64,000 nucleotides of DNA, from positions 72,001 through 136,000 of the forward strand of contig NZ_VFOF01000001.1 in assembly GCF_006715975.1 (NCBI RefSeq), read 5' to 3'. Source of the stretch: Zymomonas mobilis (lineage in GTDB: Bacteria > Pseudomonadota > Alphaproteobacteria > Sphingomonadales > Sphingomonadaceae). The notes under the pieces were generated by a model. That model was not told the DNA's origin, made no database searches, and saw only the letters and a program-made list of their open reading frames with translations. Positions within the stretch are counted from its first letter, which is position 1, and each line of letters begins with the position of its first letter. A program made the translations under genes and the position numbers. Shown here in pieces: positions 20,820 to 31,481 of this stretch.

Positions 20820-23800
20820 ATGAAATTTCTTGGGTTCCAGTTTCCGAAATCAGCAAGGATAGATGCTGAGAAGATTAGGAAAAGGTTGTTCTCTTTTGGA
20901 GGATGGCTGGAACAGAAATTAGAACAAGAAGGTGACCAATTGCCTTTATGGTTACCGATCGCTTTTGGCGGCGGGATTCTTTTATGGTTTACGATTCCGA
21001 ATAGCGATGGGTGGATAGGCTGCGGTTGTTTGCTGCTGGCCTTGGGATTGATGGCATGGCCATGGGCGGGAAAGAAAAGAGCCGCTAAAGCTATTTTGAT
21101 TATGGTGATGGCAGGCTGTTTTGGGATGGCTGATATCTGGTTCAGAGCGTATTATGTCGCACCGATAGCGCCCCCAAATTTAGGCGTTTGTGAGGTTCGT
21201 GGACAAATCCTTCAAAGTGAGCAACAGCCATCCAGAAAGCGGATGCGTTTAGTGATTGCAGCGCCGCTCTACCTATCCTCTTTGGCAGCGATGGATGCGG
21301 CTGATGAAGAGCCAGCCTCAACAGATAAAAGTAAATTACATCAGGGTGGTCGTGGTCAGGTTTTTGGCCATCGCGAGGTAAGGTATAATCAAGACGAAGC
21401 TGCGGCAAAGAGGCTTTCTTTTGCTGAGCAAGGCGGAGACGCGGATAAAAATGAATTATCAGATAACGGATTAGTTTTTGCCAATAGAGTGGCGGCGTAT
21501 CCTCAAGATAAGGATATAGCGAAGAGATCGTCTTTCATCCTGCAAGTTGCAAGCACCGATAAAAGTAAATCTTATCCAATAGAGGGCAGCCAGAGTTTTA
21601 CCGATCGAGTGAGTAGATATCACCGAGATGGAGCGGTGGTGCGAGAAGATTCCTTCGCCGATCAAAGGGCAAATGCCGACATAGATAAATTACGCCAAGT
21701 AGGTAGCGGCTTTGCCTATCGGGAAGTGGGATATCATCAAAGTAAGGCTGTTACGGAGGGGAATGCCTTTCTCGAAAAGGACGCCGACAAGACAAATTTT
21801 AGACGGGTATCGGGCGGCTGGAAGGAAGAAGGCGATTTTTCTAGCACGGATCAAGGAAGCAAGACCGAAGACGATAGTGGCAAGAGACTGAATAGCGGTG
21901 ATGTGGCCGAGATGGGGATATTCTGCCACGAAAAGAAGCTGCGTGGATGGAGACACTTTCCAAAAACAGAACAAGAGGCAAGTGAAGAAGACATAGATAC
22001 GGGGGCAAGATTAAAGGCAGAGGATGCGGCAAAAATTGCTGCAATGACCGGAATAGTTCATTCAAGACCTAGAACGATTTTGGCCGAAGCGGAGGTAGAT
22101 AGAGGAAAAAACGATAGCGCGTTTTCTGGCACAAAAGCACCCTTTCACAATTTGAGTGCAAGCGCATTAGGTAAGCCCGTTTCTCAACAGAGATGGGCTT
22201 CTTTTTTTAAAGAAACTGTAGCTGTTAAGAAGCCTCTATGGACGGTGGATTCTATAAAGGCGGCTGTTTCCGCTAAAAAAGCAGAAGATGGTTTTGCCCC
22301 TGAAAATCATTTCGATTTAGGGCAAGGAAGCCATTCAAAGCAGATAGAGCCGAGGATAGCATCCTTATTTCGGTTATGGCCTGCCTCTGAAAAACAAGGG
22401 CTCCATAAAGCATATCTCGCTTCTGTCCTTCCTGTGTCGATGCCTGTCTTATCAACTGACTTTTCAAGATTTCCATTTTCAGGATGGTTGGGGAAGAAAA
22501 CAACGCCCTCCCCTCATCTAATCCATATCAGAATATCGGTTAGTGACCGTTTTGACTTTGCCGGATTGGAAGCGGGAGCAAAAATAGCGATAAAAGCGAA
22601 GTTGACGCCTCCCATGCCCGCCATAGTGCCAGCGGGCTATGATTATGCCGAAATAGCATGGTTTCAGGGTATTTCCGCCACGGGTCATGCCTTGGGACAA
22701 CCCGTTATTCTTGCAAGGCCAGTCTTATCCGGTTTTTCTTTGGTCATGGCTTCCATCCATCAAAAGCTGACCCGCCATATCATCAAGAAAGTCGGAGAGA
22801 AATCAGGTGGTATCGAGGCGGCCTTTGTCACCAATGATGTCGGATCGATCAGCGAAAGCGATACTGTCGCGATGAGAAAAGCCGGATTGACGCATCTGTT
22901 ATCGGTCGGTGGGATGCATATCGGTGTCGTGATTGCGGCAGTGATGTTTATCACGATCCGTTTATTGGCATTGTCGCCTTATCTGGCGCTTCATTTTCCG
23001 TTGCGTATGATCGCCGCTTGCAATGCAGCCTTAGCTGGAATGGTTTATACCTTTGTCGCCGGTTGCGAGATTCCGACGGTTCGGTCGATGCTGACGGCCT
23101 TCTTTATCCTTTTCGGCATGATGATTGGCCGGAAGGCTGTAAGTTTGAGGTTGGTCGCGGCGGCAGCGATGCTGATCTTGATGATCCAACCAGAGACCAT
23201 TTTATCCCCCAGCTTTCAGTTGAGCTTTGCGGCTGTGGCTACTGTGATTGCTTTAGCCGAAGCACCTCTCATGGAGATTTTCGCGAACAGGCGTGAAGCC
23301 GGATGGTTGAAAAAAACGGCTCTGATTGTGGCTGAAATTATCATCGGCGGCGTGATGGTCGAAGCGGTGGTGTCGCCGATCACTTTATACCATTTTCACC
23401 AATCCGGTTTTTATGGCGCTTTAGCTAATATTTTAGCTATTCCGTTGACGACCTTTATCACCATACCGGCTGAAGCTTTGGCTTTGGTGACTGATCCGGT
23501 GGGATGTTCTGCGCCTTTCTGGTGGGTAACAGATCAATCCATCCGGTTATTGATTGCGATTGCCCATTATGTTGCTGCCTTGCCAATGGCTGGGTTTATG
23601 TTGCCGATGATCGGGGCTTGGCTGTGTTTGTTTATGATGGCGGGTTGGCTGTGGCTTGGGTTGTGGCAAACGTCATGGCGATTATGGGGCCTTGTGCCTT
23701 TGGTATTGGGTGTGATCGTTATCCTTTTGAACCCGAAGCCAGATTGGGTCATTAGTCGAGATGGGAAGACGATTGCTTTCAAGACCGACAATCCGAAACA

Positions 23801-24212
23801 GCCTTATAGTTTTGTCTGGCCCGATAAGGATAGTTACAGTCAGGATCAGATCGCTAATCTGATTGGTTTTGACCAAGAGGAAGAAAGCCGCCTTTTTGGC
23901 AGAAATCTCTGTCAGAAGGGATTGTGCAATATTGCGATCGATCATCAGCGTTATCATTTGCTGGCGATCAAAGGCAAAGTCGCAGGCTTATCGTCAGAGG
24001 AATGTGGCCGGAATGACTGGGTTGTGAGTTCGGGTAATCTGCCCGTTTCATGCAATCCCCAAATGATGAAAATAGACCGTCCTGTCTTGGCGAAAATGGG
24101 TGGCCTTGTTTTTTACGAGAAGTCGATTTTCCTAAGAAGGCCAAAGATGGTTACGGGGTATTCAGTGAATGATCGGCATCCTTGGATGGGTAATATTCGA
24201 GCGCAGAGTTAG
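20820..24212 (+). CDS. comEC: ComEC/Rec2-family DNA channel protein with large insertion
   Basis: 1130 residues, against about 700-750 usual for the family. It forms the inner-membrane channel that takes up single-stranded DNA in natural transformation. Residues 1-147 and about 563-620 form the two parts of a DUF4131 domain: GVCEVRGQILQSEQQPSRKR and, after the insert, LEAGAKIAIKAKLTPP with YAEIAWFQGI. The Competence domain then carries LTHLLSVGGMHIGV and many membrane segments to about residue 980. The metallo-beta-lactamase-like C-terminal domain is absent, as in some relatives. Between the two DUF4131 parts lies a hydrophilic insert of about 415 residues with degenerate tandem repeats (21315-21779). 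The frame is intact throughout. Confidence 0.9.
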   Translation: MKFLGFQFPKSARIDAEKIRKRLFSFGGWLEQKLEQEGDQLPLWLPIAFGGGILLWFTIPNSDGWIGCGCLLLALGLMAWPWAGKKRAAKAILIMVMAGCFGMADIWFRAYYVAPIAPPNLGVCEVRGQILQSEQQPSRKRMRLVIAAPLYLSSLAAMDAADEEPASTDKSKLHQGGRGQVFGHREVRYNQDEAAAKRLSFAEQGGDADKNELSDNGLVFANRVAAYPQDKDIAKRSSFILQVASTDKSKSYPIEGSQSFTDRVSRYHRDGAVVREDSFADQRANADIDKLRQVGSGFAYREVGYHQSKAVTEGNAFLEKDADKTNFRRVSGGWKEEGDFSSTDQGSKTEDDSGKRLNSGDVAEMGIFCHEKKLRGWRHFPKTEQEASEEDIDTGARLKAEDAAKIAAMTGIVHSRPRTILAEAEVDRGKNDSAFSGTKAPFHNLSASALGKPVSQQRWASFFKETVAVKKPLWTVDSIKAAVSAKKAEDGFAPENHFDLGQGSHSKQIEPRIASLFRLWPASEKQGLHKAYLASVLPVSMPVLSTDFSRFPFSGWLGKKTTPSPHLIHIRISVSDRFDFAGLEAGAKIAIKAKLTPPMPAIVPAGYDYAEIAWFQGISATGHALGQPVILARPVLSGFSLVMASIHQKLTRHIIKKVGEKSGGIEAAFVTNDVGSISESDTVAMRKAGLTHLLSVGGMHIGVVIAAVMFITIRLLALSPYLALHFPLRMIAACNAALAGMVYTFVAGCEIPTVRSMLTAFFILFGMMIGRKAVSLRLVAAAAMLILMIQPETILSPSFQLSFAAVATVIALAEAPLMEIFANRREAGWLKKTALIVAEIIIGGVMVEAVVSPITLYHFHQSGFYGALANILAIPLTTFITIPAEALALVTDPVGCSAPFWWVTDQSIRLLIAIAHYVAALPMAGFMLPMIGAWLCLFMMAGWLWLGLWQTSWRLWGLVPLVLGVIVILLNPKPDWVISRDGKTIAFKTDNPKQPYSFVWPDKDSYSQDQIANLIGFDQEEESRLFGRNLCQKGLCNIAIDHQRYHLLAIKGKVAGLSSEECGRNDWVVSSGNLPVSCNPQMMKIDRPVLAKMGGLVFYEKSIFLRRPKMVTGYSVNDRHPWMGNIRAQS
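21315..21779 (+). repeat. Tandem degenerate repeats inside comEC
   Basis: Four units of 41, 37, 40 and 37 codons start at 21315, 21438, 21549 and 21669. A partial fifth starts at 21780. The shared pattern is D-K-x-L/S, a Gly-rich turn, F-x-x-R-V/E, Y-x-x-D/S-x-A-x-x-R, S-F-x-x-Q. Units 1 and 3 both begin STDKSK, while units 2, 4 and 5 begin with a DADK-like sequence, which implies duplication of a 77-78 codon pair. Confidence 0.8.
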
Positions 24213-24219
24213 TAGGGTT

Positions 24220-25438
24220 TCATCCCGTCACCAAGGCATACCATGCTGTAATCGCGAGAATAAGAAAAGGCGTCTTTGATCCTGTTATCCTCAGCAAGAG
24301 GACAGCAGCAGAAGAGCATATTAAAATTTGGAAGAGTTTCGAGGCAATAACCGAAGGGTAAACGACCATTTCGCCCAAGGATAAAAAGATCATTTGAAGC
24401 GCTATGGCGACGATTGAAGCGATGCCAAATTTCCATCCTCCCAAAGGAAGTGAAAATTCCAGTATTGAGAATTCTTTTCCTTCAATTAATCGGCCAATGG
24501 CAGACCATCGGGTAATATATAAGCCCCAAGCGACGAGTGATATTTTATCAGAAATGCTGTGACTGGTTAACAGTTGGGAAATCAGCAAAAGAATTGCGAA
24601 GAGAAATTGAGTTTTACCTTGGAAAAGTCGTGTAACTTGCCTTGATACGAGGATTATCCAACCTAAGACAAAAGAAACAGGCTTAAAACCGCAAGCTTTC
24701 TTTTGGAAAATTGCCGAATTAAAAGATGGCAAGGCATTTATTTTTAACACGAATTCTTTACTCCCAGCTAGCCATAGAATGAGCAACCAGAGAGAAGATC
24801 GTATAATTTGATAAAAAATATAACTTTTATCTAAGAAAAAATTATTAAAATCAAAGATAAACTCTGTTTTGTTTTTTAAAGACACAAATCCGATATTAAT
24901 ATTACTTTGATGAAATACTTTCAATATTGGGAATTTAATGCCTGAAATATCCCATCCTATCCCGTGGAGAGACACACCCATATAAGAAATCCACGCAATC
25001 CATAGAGCGACGACAAGGATAGAGCGCGTTTTGGCATCTTTTAAACCACAATATTCCTCTATCGAGACCACAGTAGAAGTCATAACAATAGAAGGGAAAG
25101 AGATAATAAAGCACAAAGATATGACGTATGGGATTTGATGAAGCGAAGTAATAGGTAGATTTTTTACGCTGCCAATCAACGCAATAAAAATTAAATGCAT
25201 TGTTAAAATAAAAAATGATGCCAAAAAGCTACCAAAAAAAATATCTCTTTTCTGTATAGGAAAGGAGGAAAGTAAATTTTCCGGTATTGGTTTTTTTACT
25301 GTTAATTTGATTAATAAAAACCCGATTAGAGGGTATATCATAGAAAACATACTGCCTGTTATCACAGGGATAGCATCTTTATTATAAGCGATAATTTTAT
25401 CTAAAACTGTAAATGTGGCATATCCATAGCTATTGTTA
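24220..25438 (-). pseudogene. ABC transporter permease, C-terminal part (split by IS)
   Basis: The frame is open from the IS border at 25438 to the stop at 24220, so the apparent GTG start at 25365 is internal. It is very hydrophobic, with about ten membrane segments, and resembles ABC-2-type export permeases without a family I can name. Its N terminus lies at 26519-26648. Removing 25439-26518 and one copy of the TA target joins the two parts in frame with no stop, giving a 448-residue permease. Base composition is AT-rich compared with gltX or comEC, which suggests acquired DNA. It is convergent with comEC, with 7 bases between stops. Confidence 0.8.
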
Positions 25439-26287
25439 GGTTATGTTGACAAAGGGTATAATTTAAGATTTTTAGAGATAACTTGAGAACAAGTTTTGTA
25501 GGGCAGATAGGATGCGAGGAGATCTGACAGACGCGGAGTGGGAGATAATAGAGGGTCTTCTTCCAAGCGAACGAGGCCGCTGCGCGCGTCCCGCCAAAAG
25601 TAATCGGTTATTTCTCAATGGTATGCTTTATGTGCTTCGAACAGGCTGCCCGTGGCGAGATATGCATGAACGTTATGGGAAATGGAATTCGGTCTATGTT
25701 CGGTTTCGTAGGTGGGCAGAACAGGGTGTCTGGGACGCTCTTCTTGAAACCCTGGTTGACCTTGGCCTGACAGATGACTGGCAACATATGATAGATAGTA
25801 CGATTATTCGCGCCCACAGCCAAGCGGCTGGCGCAAAAGGGGGACGTATAAGGAAGGCTTTGGTCGCAGCCGCGGAGGCTTTACGAGCAAGATCCACGCC
25901 CGTTCCGATGGTCAAGGCCGCCCTCTAGCTTTCGAACTTACAGGTGGTGAGGTCTCTGATTATTCTGGCGCTGATAGCTTGATAGATATCCCTGTCACAA
26001 CACCCCACCGTTTTCTCGCTGATAAAGGATATGATAGCGATAGGTTACGCGAAAAACTGCTTTTTCGAGGCATCCTTCCTGTTATCCCGCCTCGTTCCAA
26101 TCGGAAAAAGCCTATTCCTTATAATCTCCAGCACTACAAAGATCGTAATCGTATTGAGCGGATGTTCAATAAGTTGAAGCAGTTCAGACGTATTGCCACA
26201 CGCTATGACAAAACCAGAAAATCTTTCCTCGCCTTCCTTCATATCGCGGCCGTAAAATTGTGGTTACCTTCCTTTGTCAACATAACC
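25439..26287 (+). mobile_element. IS5-family insertion sequence (IS427-like), intact
   Basis: An 849-bp element. The perfect 17-bp terminal inverted repeats are GGTTATGTTGACAAAGG at 25439-25455 and its complement at 26271-26287. A TA dinucleotide flanks it at 25437-25438 and 26288-26289, consistent with the 2-bp target duplication of the IS427 group. It carries one transposase read in two frames. It sits inside the remains of an older related element and splits an ABC permease gene. Confidence 0.92.
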
Positions 26288-26290
26288 TAG
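25512..26290 (+). CDS. IS5-family transposase, made by -1 frameshift
   Basis: Frame 1 (25512-25928) starts MRGDLTDAEWEIIEGLLPSE and holds the first catalytic Asp in MIDSTIIRAHSQAAGAKGG. The second part lies in the -1 frame and holds GRSRGGFTSKIHARSDGQ, the second Asp in FLADKGYDSDRLR and the Glu in RIERMFNKLKQFRRIATRYD, so the DDE triad is complete. The likely slip site is the AAAAGGGGG run at 25835-25843, as in the IS427 group. The fused product would be about 258 residues. Its TAG stop (26288-26290) is formed by the TA target copy plus the next base, outside the element itself. Confidence 0.85.
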
Positions 26291-29550: not shown

Positions 29551-30372
29551 TTAGGAAGAGAACCATATTTTTAGCTGATTTTTTGCAGCTTCACTTCCGT
29601 GATCAGCCGATTGTTTTAGCCAATAAGACGAATTGTTCTTATCGACCGTTACGCCTTCGCCATTATAATACATAATGCCCAAAGCGAGTTCGGCTTGTGC
29701 AAAACCGTGATTGGCCGCTTGTTGATACCAATAGACGGCTTTCCCCTTATCAACCGCGAGGCCATCCCCGTTATAATACAGATTACCAAGGTTATATTCA
29801 GCCTGTGCATTCCCCTGCTCGGCTGCCTTTTGATACCAATAAAGGGTTTTGGATTTATCAAGCGCGACGGTGTCGCCGCTCGCATACATAACGCCTAGAT
29901 TTAATTGCGATTGCGGGTCATTTTGGTTGGCTGCTTGTTGATATAGATCCGCAGCTTTGGCTTTATCGACGGTAACTGCATCGCCGTTGTAATACATGTT
30001 GCCAAGAGCGACTTGGCCTTGGGCATCGCCATGATTAACCGCTTGCTGATACCAGTAAAGCGCCTTGGATTTATCAACCGCTACGCCGTCGCCATTATAA
30101 TATAGCGTGCCGAGATTATATTCAGCGGGCGCAAAGCCTTTATTGGCGGCCTGCTGTATCAAGTTAAAGGCTTTGCCTTTATCGGCCGCGAGACCGTCAC
30201 CATGAGCATATTTCAGGCCGAGCGTTAAGGCATCCTGTGGCGTTTTCGGGTTCGGTTTTTTTAGACTTAAAGCCCCCCAGAGGAGCAAAGCTCCCAATAT
30301 TATGGCGGCTGAAATAAGAGCCGCTTTCCATCCTATTTTTTTCACTGTCCTTAATATCCCGCTGGTCTTCAT
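29551..30372 (-). CDS. Membrane-anchored Sel1-repeat protein
   Basis: 273 residues. One membrane segment (about 15-34) is followed by six Sel1-like repeats of 36 residues, each with the pattern A-x-x-x-LG-x-M/L-YYNGDG-V-x-VDK-x-KA-x-YWYQQAA. The repeats also show at DNA level as a 108-base period. Sel1 proteins are scaffolds for protein contacts. It lies divergent from the cyclodeaminase gene. A longer Sel1 protein at 57461 shares the motif style. Confidence 0.88.
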   Translation of the reverse strand: MKTSGILRTVKKIGWKAALISAAIILGALLLWGALSLKKPNPKTPQDALTLGLKYAHGDGLAADKGKAFNLIQQAANKGFAPAEYNLGTLYYNGDGVAVDKSKALYWYQQAVNHGDAQGQVALGNMYYNGDAVTVDKAKAADLYQQAANQNDPQSQLNLGVMYASGDTVALDKSKTLYWYQKAAEQGNAQAEYNLGNLYYNGDGLAVDKGKAVYWYQQAANHGFAQAELALGIMYYNGEGVTVDKNNSSYWLKQSADHGSEAAKNQLKIWFSS

Positions 30373-30575
30373 CGATTATATTTTGTCCCTACGCCTCCCT
30401 TTATTTACGGAATATGACAGAAATGCCCCCTGCCTGATGTTTGCTATTGCGCCACAAAGTATTGATCAACAAATCACGCTTGCAATTGGGCGGCCGCTTT
30501 TAAGATCGAAGATATTAGGCGGGCGGGATTCCTTTTTTCTTTGCAAAAGATCAAGGAGATCAGGATAACAGCCAG

Positions 30576-31481
30576 ATGAAATTCTATTCTATCGCCGAAA
30601 CAAAGAAGATTTTGACCTATCCTGTCTTGGTTGAAGCTTTGAAGCAGACAATTCAGGCATATGATCGGGGTGATATTCATTGTCCCGAGCGGGTCACGAC
30701 GATGGCTCCCGATAGATCAAGCCTGTTGATGGTCATGCCCGCGACCAGTCGGGAAATATTGGTCACCAAAATATTGACGATTTGCCCTGATAATGCGGCT
30801 TCTGAGCGGCCTGTCATCCAAGGGCAGATATCCTGTGCTGATGCCGAAAACGGCAAGATGCTGTTCGTTTTGGATGCCCCAACGGTCACCATGTTACGGA
30901 CATCGGCTTTGTCTATGTTGGCGATCGAATTACTGGCAAAACAGCCGATAGAAAAGATTTTGATTATTGGGACGGGCGTGCAGGCCGTTGCCCATTGTGA
31001 GGCGCTGGCGGCGCTTTATCCTGATATTTCAGTTTCTATCAGAGGCCGTTCAATGGAACGGAGCCGTGCCTTTTGTCAGCGGCTATCATCCTTGCCTTTG
31101 CGATTGCAGCCAGACGAAAGAGACGGATCTGATTTCGATGTGGTGATTACGGTCACTTCCAGTCGTGAAGTTATCTATAATGAGCCAGCCTTGGCGGGAC
31201 GATTGGTGATTGCGGTGGGTGCCTTTAGGCCGGAGATGATCGAGATTGCGCCCGAAATTGTGAGAAATAGCGTGGTCTATGTCGATGATTTGATTGGGGC
31301 GCCGAGTGAGGCAGGCGATATTATTCAGGCCGGTTTGGAATGGTCAAAAGTGCAGCCTTTGGCTTTAGCATTAGAGAGCAAGCCCCTTAAGGATCAGCCG
31401 ATCTTGTTTAAATCGGTGGGTTGTGCCGCTTGGGATTTGGCAGCTTGTCAGGTCGTGTATGAGTTTGCCGGAAAGCGATGA
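30576..31481 (+). CDS. Ornithine cyclodeaminase/mu-crystallin family protein
   Basis: 301 residues. The family core is visible: VTKILTICPDN, FVLDAPTVTMLRTSALS and the NAD-binding IIGTGVQAVAHCEAL (about residue 130), followed by VYVDDLIGAPSEAGD. Members act as NAD-dependent ornithine cyclodeaminases, alanine dehydrogenases or imine reductases. The substrate is not clear. An AAGGAGATCAGGA region lies 12-25 bases upstream. No operon partner is evident. Confidence 0.87.
   Translation: MKFYSIAETKKILTYPVLVEALKQTIQAYDRGDIHCPERVTTMAPDRSSLLMVMPATSREILVTKILTICPDNAASERPVIQGQISCADAENGKMLFVLDAPTVTMLRTSALSMLAIELLAKQPIEKILIIGTGVQAVAHCEALAALYPDISVSIRGRSMERSRAFCQRLSSLPLRLQPDERDGSDFDVVITVTSSREVIYNEPALAGRLVIAVGAFRPEMIEIAPEIVRNSVVYVDDLIGAPSEAGDIIQAGLEWSKVQPLALALESKPLKDQPILFKSVGCAAWDLAACQVVYEFAGKR

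Follow-up and report, generated by a model that had tools for sequence, protein, structure and literature searches.

ComEC, a widespread DNA channel, serves in natural transformation, and its OB domain is believed to deliver DNA to the channel. In the window, the whole 64,000-nucleotide stretch of Zymomonas DNA analysed here, the ComEC-family protein carries about 420 extra residues within the OB domain (DUF4131), at a site where all four Zymomonas genomes examined have an extended linker and where part of the extra sequence here consists of tandem repeats. On balance, we consider it likely that a permissive hairpin of the OB domain has turned into a hypervariable, mostly disordered periplasmic spacer in Zymomonas, which in the window protein has partly grown by tandem duplication.

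Results

Identification of the ComEC frame

An open frame of 1130 residues encoding a ComEC with a split DUF4131 domain had been described in an earlier note on this DNA, and Pfam searches bear this out (Table 1). The Competence domain (PF03772) was matched with E 4.4e-62 and 210.3 bits, above the cut-off of 23, and is the sole match to this domain in the genome. DUF4131 (PF13567) was matched in two stretches (E 5e-6), the better of which pairs residues 570–625 with profile positions 106–160 of 165. The whole-protein DUF4131 score of 26.7 bits is below the Pfam cut-off of 31.6, probably because the insert splits the domain, and the flanking parts align with the N-termini of sphingomonad ComECs. 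The NCBIfam ComEC_N-term model (TIGR00360) was exceeded at 64.5 against a cut-off of 36.5, but the ComEC_Rec2 equivalog (TIGR00361) scored 100.2 bits against a cut-off of 190.05, with a match limited to residues 587–911, and the claim is therefore narrowed to a ComEC-family protein. Transmembrane-like hydropathy windows, with values of 1.6–2.4, lie at residues 41–106 and 628–970.

Table 1. Features of the comEC frame, in window coordinates
Feature	Residues	Position	Strand	Remarks
comEC ORF	1–1130	20820..24212	+	1130 aa, ATG start, open; split DUF4131 (OB) and Competence domain; no Lactamase_B match in Pfam
N-terminal part	1–149	20820..21266	+	TM-like segments; initial part of DUF4131; ends ...RKRMRLVIAAP
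Extra linker	150–569	21267..22526	+	420 aa; searches made gave no homolog; final ~20 residues (from aa ~550) possibly common to sister linkers
Repeat copy R1	167–207	21318..21440	+	self-alignment
Repeat copy R2	208–244	21441..21551	+	self-alignment
Repeat copy R3	245–285	21552..21674	+	partner of R1 in 78-aa duplication
Repeat copy R4	286–321	21675..21782	+	partner of R2 in 78-aa duplication
Linker remainder	322–569	21783..22526	+	no repeat shown there
Resumed DUF4131, Competence domain (aa 670–951), C-terminal region		22527..24209	+	strongly conserved

The gene adjoins those for glutamyl-tRNA synthetase and citrate synthase, and the comEC frame is open in all four Zymomonas genomes. Of the other competence genes, dprA exceeded its cut-off in all four, comF-like matches were found in all four but under the cut-off, and the comEA model exceeded its cut-off in none of the four; the same model also missed the control Caulobacter. 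From its sequence, the window protein is an ordinary, selected ComEC of the DUF4131-plus-Competence type, with a predicted role in DNA transport. It is like the DNA-uptake channel ComEC/Rec2 (PF03772 and PF13567) in its Competence domain and the DUF4131 stretches that precede it, and differs by the residues added inside DUF4131; lengths of 417–872 residues are given for the ComECs of 51 naturally competent strains in PMC6299819.

Two further features lie downstream of comEC. A frame at 24220–25365 (−) encodes a membrane-like protein of 381 residues with no Pfam match, which is 51% identical to a frame of the Zymomonas genome G001; no match above 40% identity was listed in the stretches of a second genome, G002. 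Just downstream of comEC, an IS4/IS5-type transposase is split over two ORFs, 25512–25928 and 25979–26290 (+; PF13340, then PF13586/PF01609), and is frameshifted or broken.

Extent and character of the insert

Homology with the sister ComECs runs to about residue 149 and returns from about residue 570, from where on the window protein is again like them. The limits are close to the residues 148–562 reported earlier. The description of the insert as hydrophilic and free of membrane segments also holds, as its highest 19-residue hydropathy window is 1.07. It is enriched in Lys, Asp, Glu, and Ser relative to the rest of the protein, in agreement with its having been called charged and rich in Lys, Asp, and Glu, but the charges are balanced (60 Lys and Arg, 60 Asp and Glu, net 0). 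The GC content of the insert (0.465) is near that of the left flank (0.467), with 0.491 in the right flank. Codon usage, taken as a gauge of age or foreignness, gave mixed results: the insert is nearer to that of Zymomonas than are sequences drawn by base composition (−0.027 versus −0.109, S.D. 0.023), but its reverse frames score alike, and both the insert and the left flank (0.005) fall below every one of the 36 training ORFs, of which the lowest is at 0.028.

By strand order, judged by eye, the insertion site would correspond to the turn between β2 and β3 of the OB domain; profile mapping of this hairpin onto a solved ComEC OB domain returned no ComEC match. The insert probably lies on the periplasmic side, outside the membrane, in keeping with the general ComEC topology given in PMC5031224 and PMC12455585. 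In a Uversky plot of hydropathy and charge, the repeats fall on the disordered side; the insert as a whole, its part outside the repeats, and the linkers of G001 and a third genome, G003, fall on the folded side. AlphaFold models were uninformative, both for the insert alone (mean pLDDT 39) and for the whole protein with a two-row alignment (mean pLDDT 29), in which the conserved core was also below 50.

Linker length across Zymomonas and Sphingomonadales

Linker spacing was counted as the residues between the strand ending RLVIA and the strand RISVSD in a single alignment of 47 sequences, six of them Zymomonas sequences from four genomes and 41 from other Sphingomonadales. The linker is 63 residues in G002 (twice), 90 in G003 (the metagenome-assembled genome Zymomonas sp. 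W26; twice), 136 in G001, and 422 in the window genome, and thus extended in every Zymomonas genome. In all 41 ComECs measured outside the genus, which represent part of the genomes with a Competence match (55 of 59 in one survey and 283 of 296 genomes of the order in another), it is 7–23 residues. The earlier note would have been refuted by an equivalent stretch in all sphingomonad ComECs; the 41 measured lack it, and it is not found in sphingomonads at large, yet an extended linker as such is general in the Zymomonas examined. Among the matches listed, at least four ComEC frames outside Zymomonas exceed 1000 residues (G254, G137, G095, and G239; 1029–1211 residues), and these were rejected as carriers of this insert, since their spacing is 9–11; their additional frame lies ahead of ComEC.

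The length change is exceptional within the window. Window ORFs of at least 120 residues, taken stop to stop with spurious frames included, were compared with those of the sister genomes under a filter of more than 40% identity, which left 50 matched in the stretches of G001 (covering the window up to about 47.8 kb) and 49 in those of G002, from 51 each before the filter. The internal gain in comEC, 287 residues versus G001 and 359 versus G002, is by far the largest among these. The next largest are 110 residues at 30519–31478, relative to a shorter G001 frame, and 57 in a possibly spurious ORF at 30206, with no larger gain among the rest. The first of these is a frame of 320 residues (+) whose G001 counterpart has 212 residues with internal gaps and may be broken.

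Several genomes of the order depart from a single Competence match. In 13 of 296 no such match was found, and G010, G141, G234, and G295 have two separate ones each; those of G010 are adjacent, overlap slightly, and differ in frame, which would fit a frameshifted comEC.

Tandem repeats in the insert

A tandem repeat overlooked by the earlier note was found, in which 155 residues of the insert (residues 167–321) make up four copies of a unit of 36–41 residues with a nested duplication of 78 residues. The best ungapped self-alignment, at a shift of 78 residues, scores 117, compared with 50 for the best of 300 shuffles, and is followed by shifts of 38, 116, and 40; the gapped self-match scores 109 versus at most 63 in 200 shuffles. 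R1 and R3 start with STDKSK, and R2 and R4 start with AD, which fits a duplication of about 39 residues followed by one of 78, and this is the order that we infer. At the DNA level, the copies are 49–58% identical by pair, and Tandem Repeats Finder found no repeat.

Selection on repeats, linkers, and flanks

A pairwise codon model was used to compare rates of change. ComEC outside the linker is under strong purifying selection, with ω of 0.09–0.11 for the flanks between the window and either G001 or G003 and 0.14 between G001 and G003. The linker common to G001 and G003 appears to evolve almost neutrally: its ω, 0.84 over 58 ungapped codons and 0.61 when all 88 aligned codons are used, does not differ from 1 in either case, and the 58 codons depart from the flank value when tested against 0.138 (p 2e-5).

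The duplicated halves of the window repeat, R1R2 and R3R4, differ at 71% of synonymous and 38% of nonsynonymous sites, with a BLOSUM sum of 111 in frame versus 17–42 in the five other frames. The 78-residue shift (77 ungapped codons) gives ω of 0.33 (2ΔlnL interval about 0.12–0.67; p 0.002 versus 1), a value that neutral simulations reached once in 150 runs and once in 40; the register was picked for high protein similarity, which lowers ω and lies outside the simulation. The other pairing, R1R2 plus R3R4, gives ω of 0.57 (p 0.19), not different from 1. By one comparison of copies, the repeats thus appear constrained as protein. A neutral expansion, one of the options raised in the earlier note, fits the G001–G003 linker but agrees less well with the window repeats, in which some constraint is seen. 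The array looks old, as its dS at the 78-residue shift is 1.73, whereas that of the window flanks is 1.27 versus G001 (the split from Z. mobilis) and 1.03 versus G003. The duplication would then date from around the species split or before it, or else the stretch mutates faster; if it came earlier, the sister lines would have lost the array.

The low ω, the in-frame similarity, and the age of the array are what might be expected if residues 167–321 formed a selected periplasmic module that gives the protein a further contact, such as one with DNA, peptidoglycan, or a pilus or uptake partner. We regard this as possible but unlikely, given that no homolog was found in the searches made, that the array is absent from the three sister species, and that the second pairing of copies and the choice of register both weaken the case for constraint. 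A net charge of zero offers no obvious grip on DNA, so that the direct DNA binding proposed for the insert in the earlier note is also disfavoured by its composition. A bolder version, in which the array is a working module of the OB domain that is replaced quickly between species, so that the outer loop of each ComEC tunes recognition of DNA or of a partner, is speculative and improbable.

Relation to sister linkers and search for a source

The linkers are Lys/Asp/Glu-rich in two genomes (window and G002, the latter with 12 basic and 15 acidic residues in 62) and Ser/Pro-rich with few acids in the other two (41% Ser and Pro in G001 and 35% in G003). Between G001 and G003 the linkers align at p 0.002, the lowest value that 500 shuffles allow. 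No sister linker aligns with that of the window better than shuffles do (p 0.79 for G001, 0.65 for G003, and 0.17 for G002), although MAFFT pairs its ~20 residues just ahead of RISVSD with the linker of W26. At the DNA level, the longest sister match to the window linker is 14 bases or fewer, in a BLAST comparison of limited reach that missed the window's own repeats too. The flanking DNA is 72–79% identical between the window and G001 or G003, so that some trace of drift from a homologous sequence should have remained; these comparisons make replacement, duplication, or rearrangement more likely as the origin of the window linker. Descent of the repeats from the sister linkers, suggested by a common V.RY...SF look, was rejected, as the repeat profile had no significant match there (E 0.23 or worse). 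A link between the purine-rich and pyrimidine-rich linkers by inversion or frameshift was likewise rejected, with six-frame protein comparison, of the same limited reach, giving G001–G003 matches alone.

The insert had been called foreign in the earlier note, and searches were made for a source. The insert matched none of the other three Zymomonas genomes, nor any of 384 further genomes of the class (385 including its own). Plasmids and phages gave no match by DNA, nor did viral contigs by a method suited to close relatives alone; within the genus, apart from itself, its DNA matched nothing better than E 0.015 over 25 bases. An intein or other known inserted domain was rejected, with Competence and DUF4131 the only Pfam matches of the whole protein (up to E 1), no NCBIfam match to the insert, and best E values of 0.49 in PHROGs and 0.35 in PDB. 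A segment from a phage, a plasmid, or another gene, inserted in frame in the window lineage, would account for the abrupt loss of homology at both ends, for repeats that are already diverged, as if acquired old, and for the lack of a related linker in the sisters. We nevertheless consider such an origin doubtful in view of these searches, of GC content like that of the left flank, and of extended linkers at the same site in the sisters.

Discussion

The explanation that we favour, a hypervariable spacer at a permissive hairpin, would run as follows. One surface hairpin of the periplasmic OB domain would have become permissive in the Zymomonas lineage, and sequence at this site would have been gained, lost, and replaced much faster than in the rest of the gene. 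In the window lineage, the linker would have grown to its present length partly through two rounds of in-frame tandem duplication. The OB fold would close around a mostly disordered, charge-balanced insert, most likely acting as a spacer, with DNA handling left to the conserved ComEC domains, and the repeat array may have kept some amino acid constraint, which could serve solubility or a weak contact.

Drift of the gene toward a pseudogene with the insert as debris, which would suit the low natural competence suggested as a Zymomonas trait in PMC8088579, is very improbable and largely refuted by the conserved core (flank ω 0.09–0.14), by the frame open throughout the genus sample, and by a transposon mutant of comEC (ZZ6_1210) in Z. 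mobilis TISTR 548, which PMC5571576 counts among the thermotolerance genes and also gives as necessary for ethanol tolerance. Two other papers pair this gene with ZMO1965 of ZM4 (PMC8237431) and also list the mutant (PMC7136397), and the mutant suggests that comEC matters in Zymomonas. The earlier argument from the open frame stands in that the gene is not in obvious decay, but it tells little of a function of the insert itself, as the same frame continues downstream into the conserved membrane domain.

No description of the insert was found in the titles or passages seen of the literature on Zymomonas comEC and competence and on ComEC OB-fold insertions. A close parallel is the ComEC of Moorella glycerini, for which PMC12455585 describes electrostatic DNA binding by the OB fold and a disordered β4–β5 loop of 28 residues. 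Both are long outgrowths on the OB domain, but the window insert is 15-fold longer, repetitive, and placed in another loop, apparently after the second strand.

The length range in Zymomonas, from 63 to 422 residues of unrelated sequence tolerated by the OB domain, marks a permissive site and suggests that the hairpin need not be compact. Tandem-repeat expansions occur in disordered linkers of other bacterial proteins, and the likeness lies in a permissive linker that lengthens by in-frame duplication; the window repeats differ in sitting within a domain of a DNA-transport channel and in having copies that look old and constrained. The Zymomonas ComECs are a case of rapid linker replacement inside a conserved membrane protein and offer natural insertion mutants for testing the role of the OB domain.

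Plasmid observations

Plasmid-sized contigs of the window genome match other Zymomonas plasmids at 87–95% over partial length, among the matches listed. One of them, the small contig C3 (15.4 kb), carries type I-C cas genes (L041:1–4379); its identity is 90% with a plasmid from Z. mobilis NCIMB 11163 and 88% with a subsp. pomaceae plasmid. In G001, two plasmid stretches of 6,000 bases each match plasmids from Z. mobilis ATCC 10988 at 100% identity. Also on a G001 plasmid, a type I restriction locus (L059:1190–5138) is 87–90% identical to Acetobacter plasmids in the best five of 18 Acetobacter records, a likeness that suggests exchange between fermentation neighbours.
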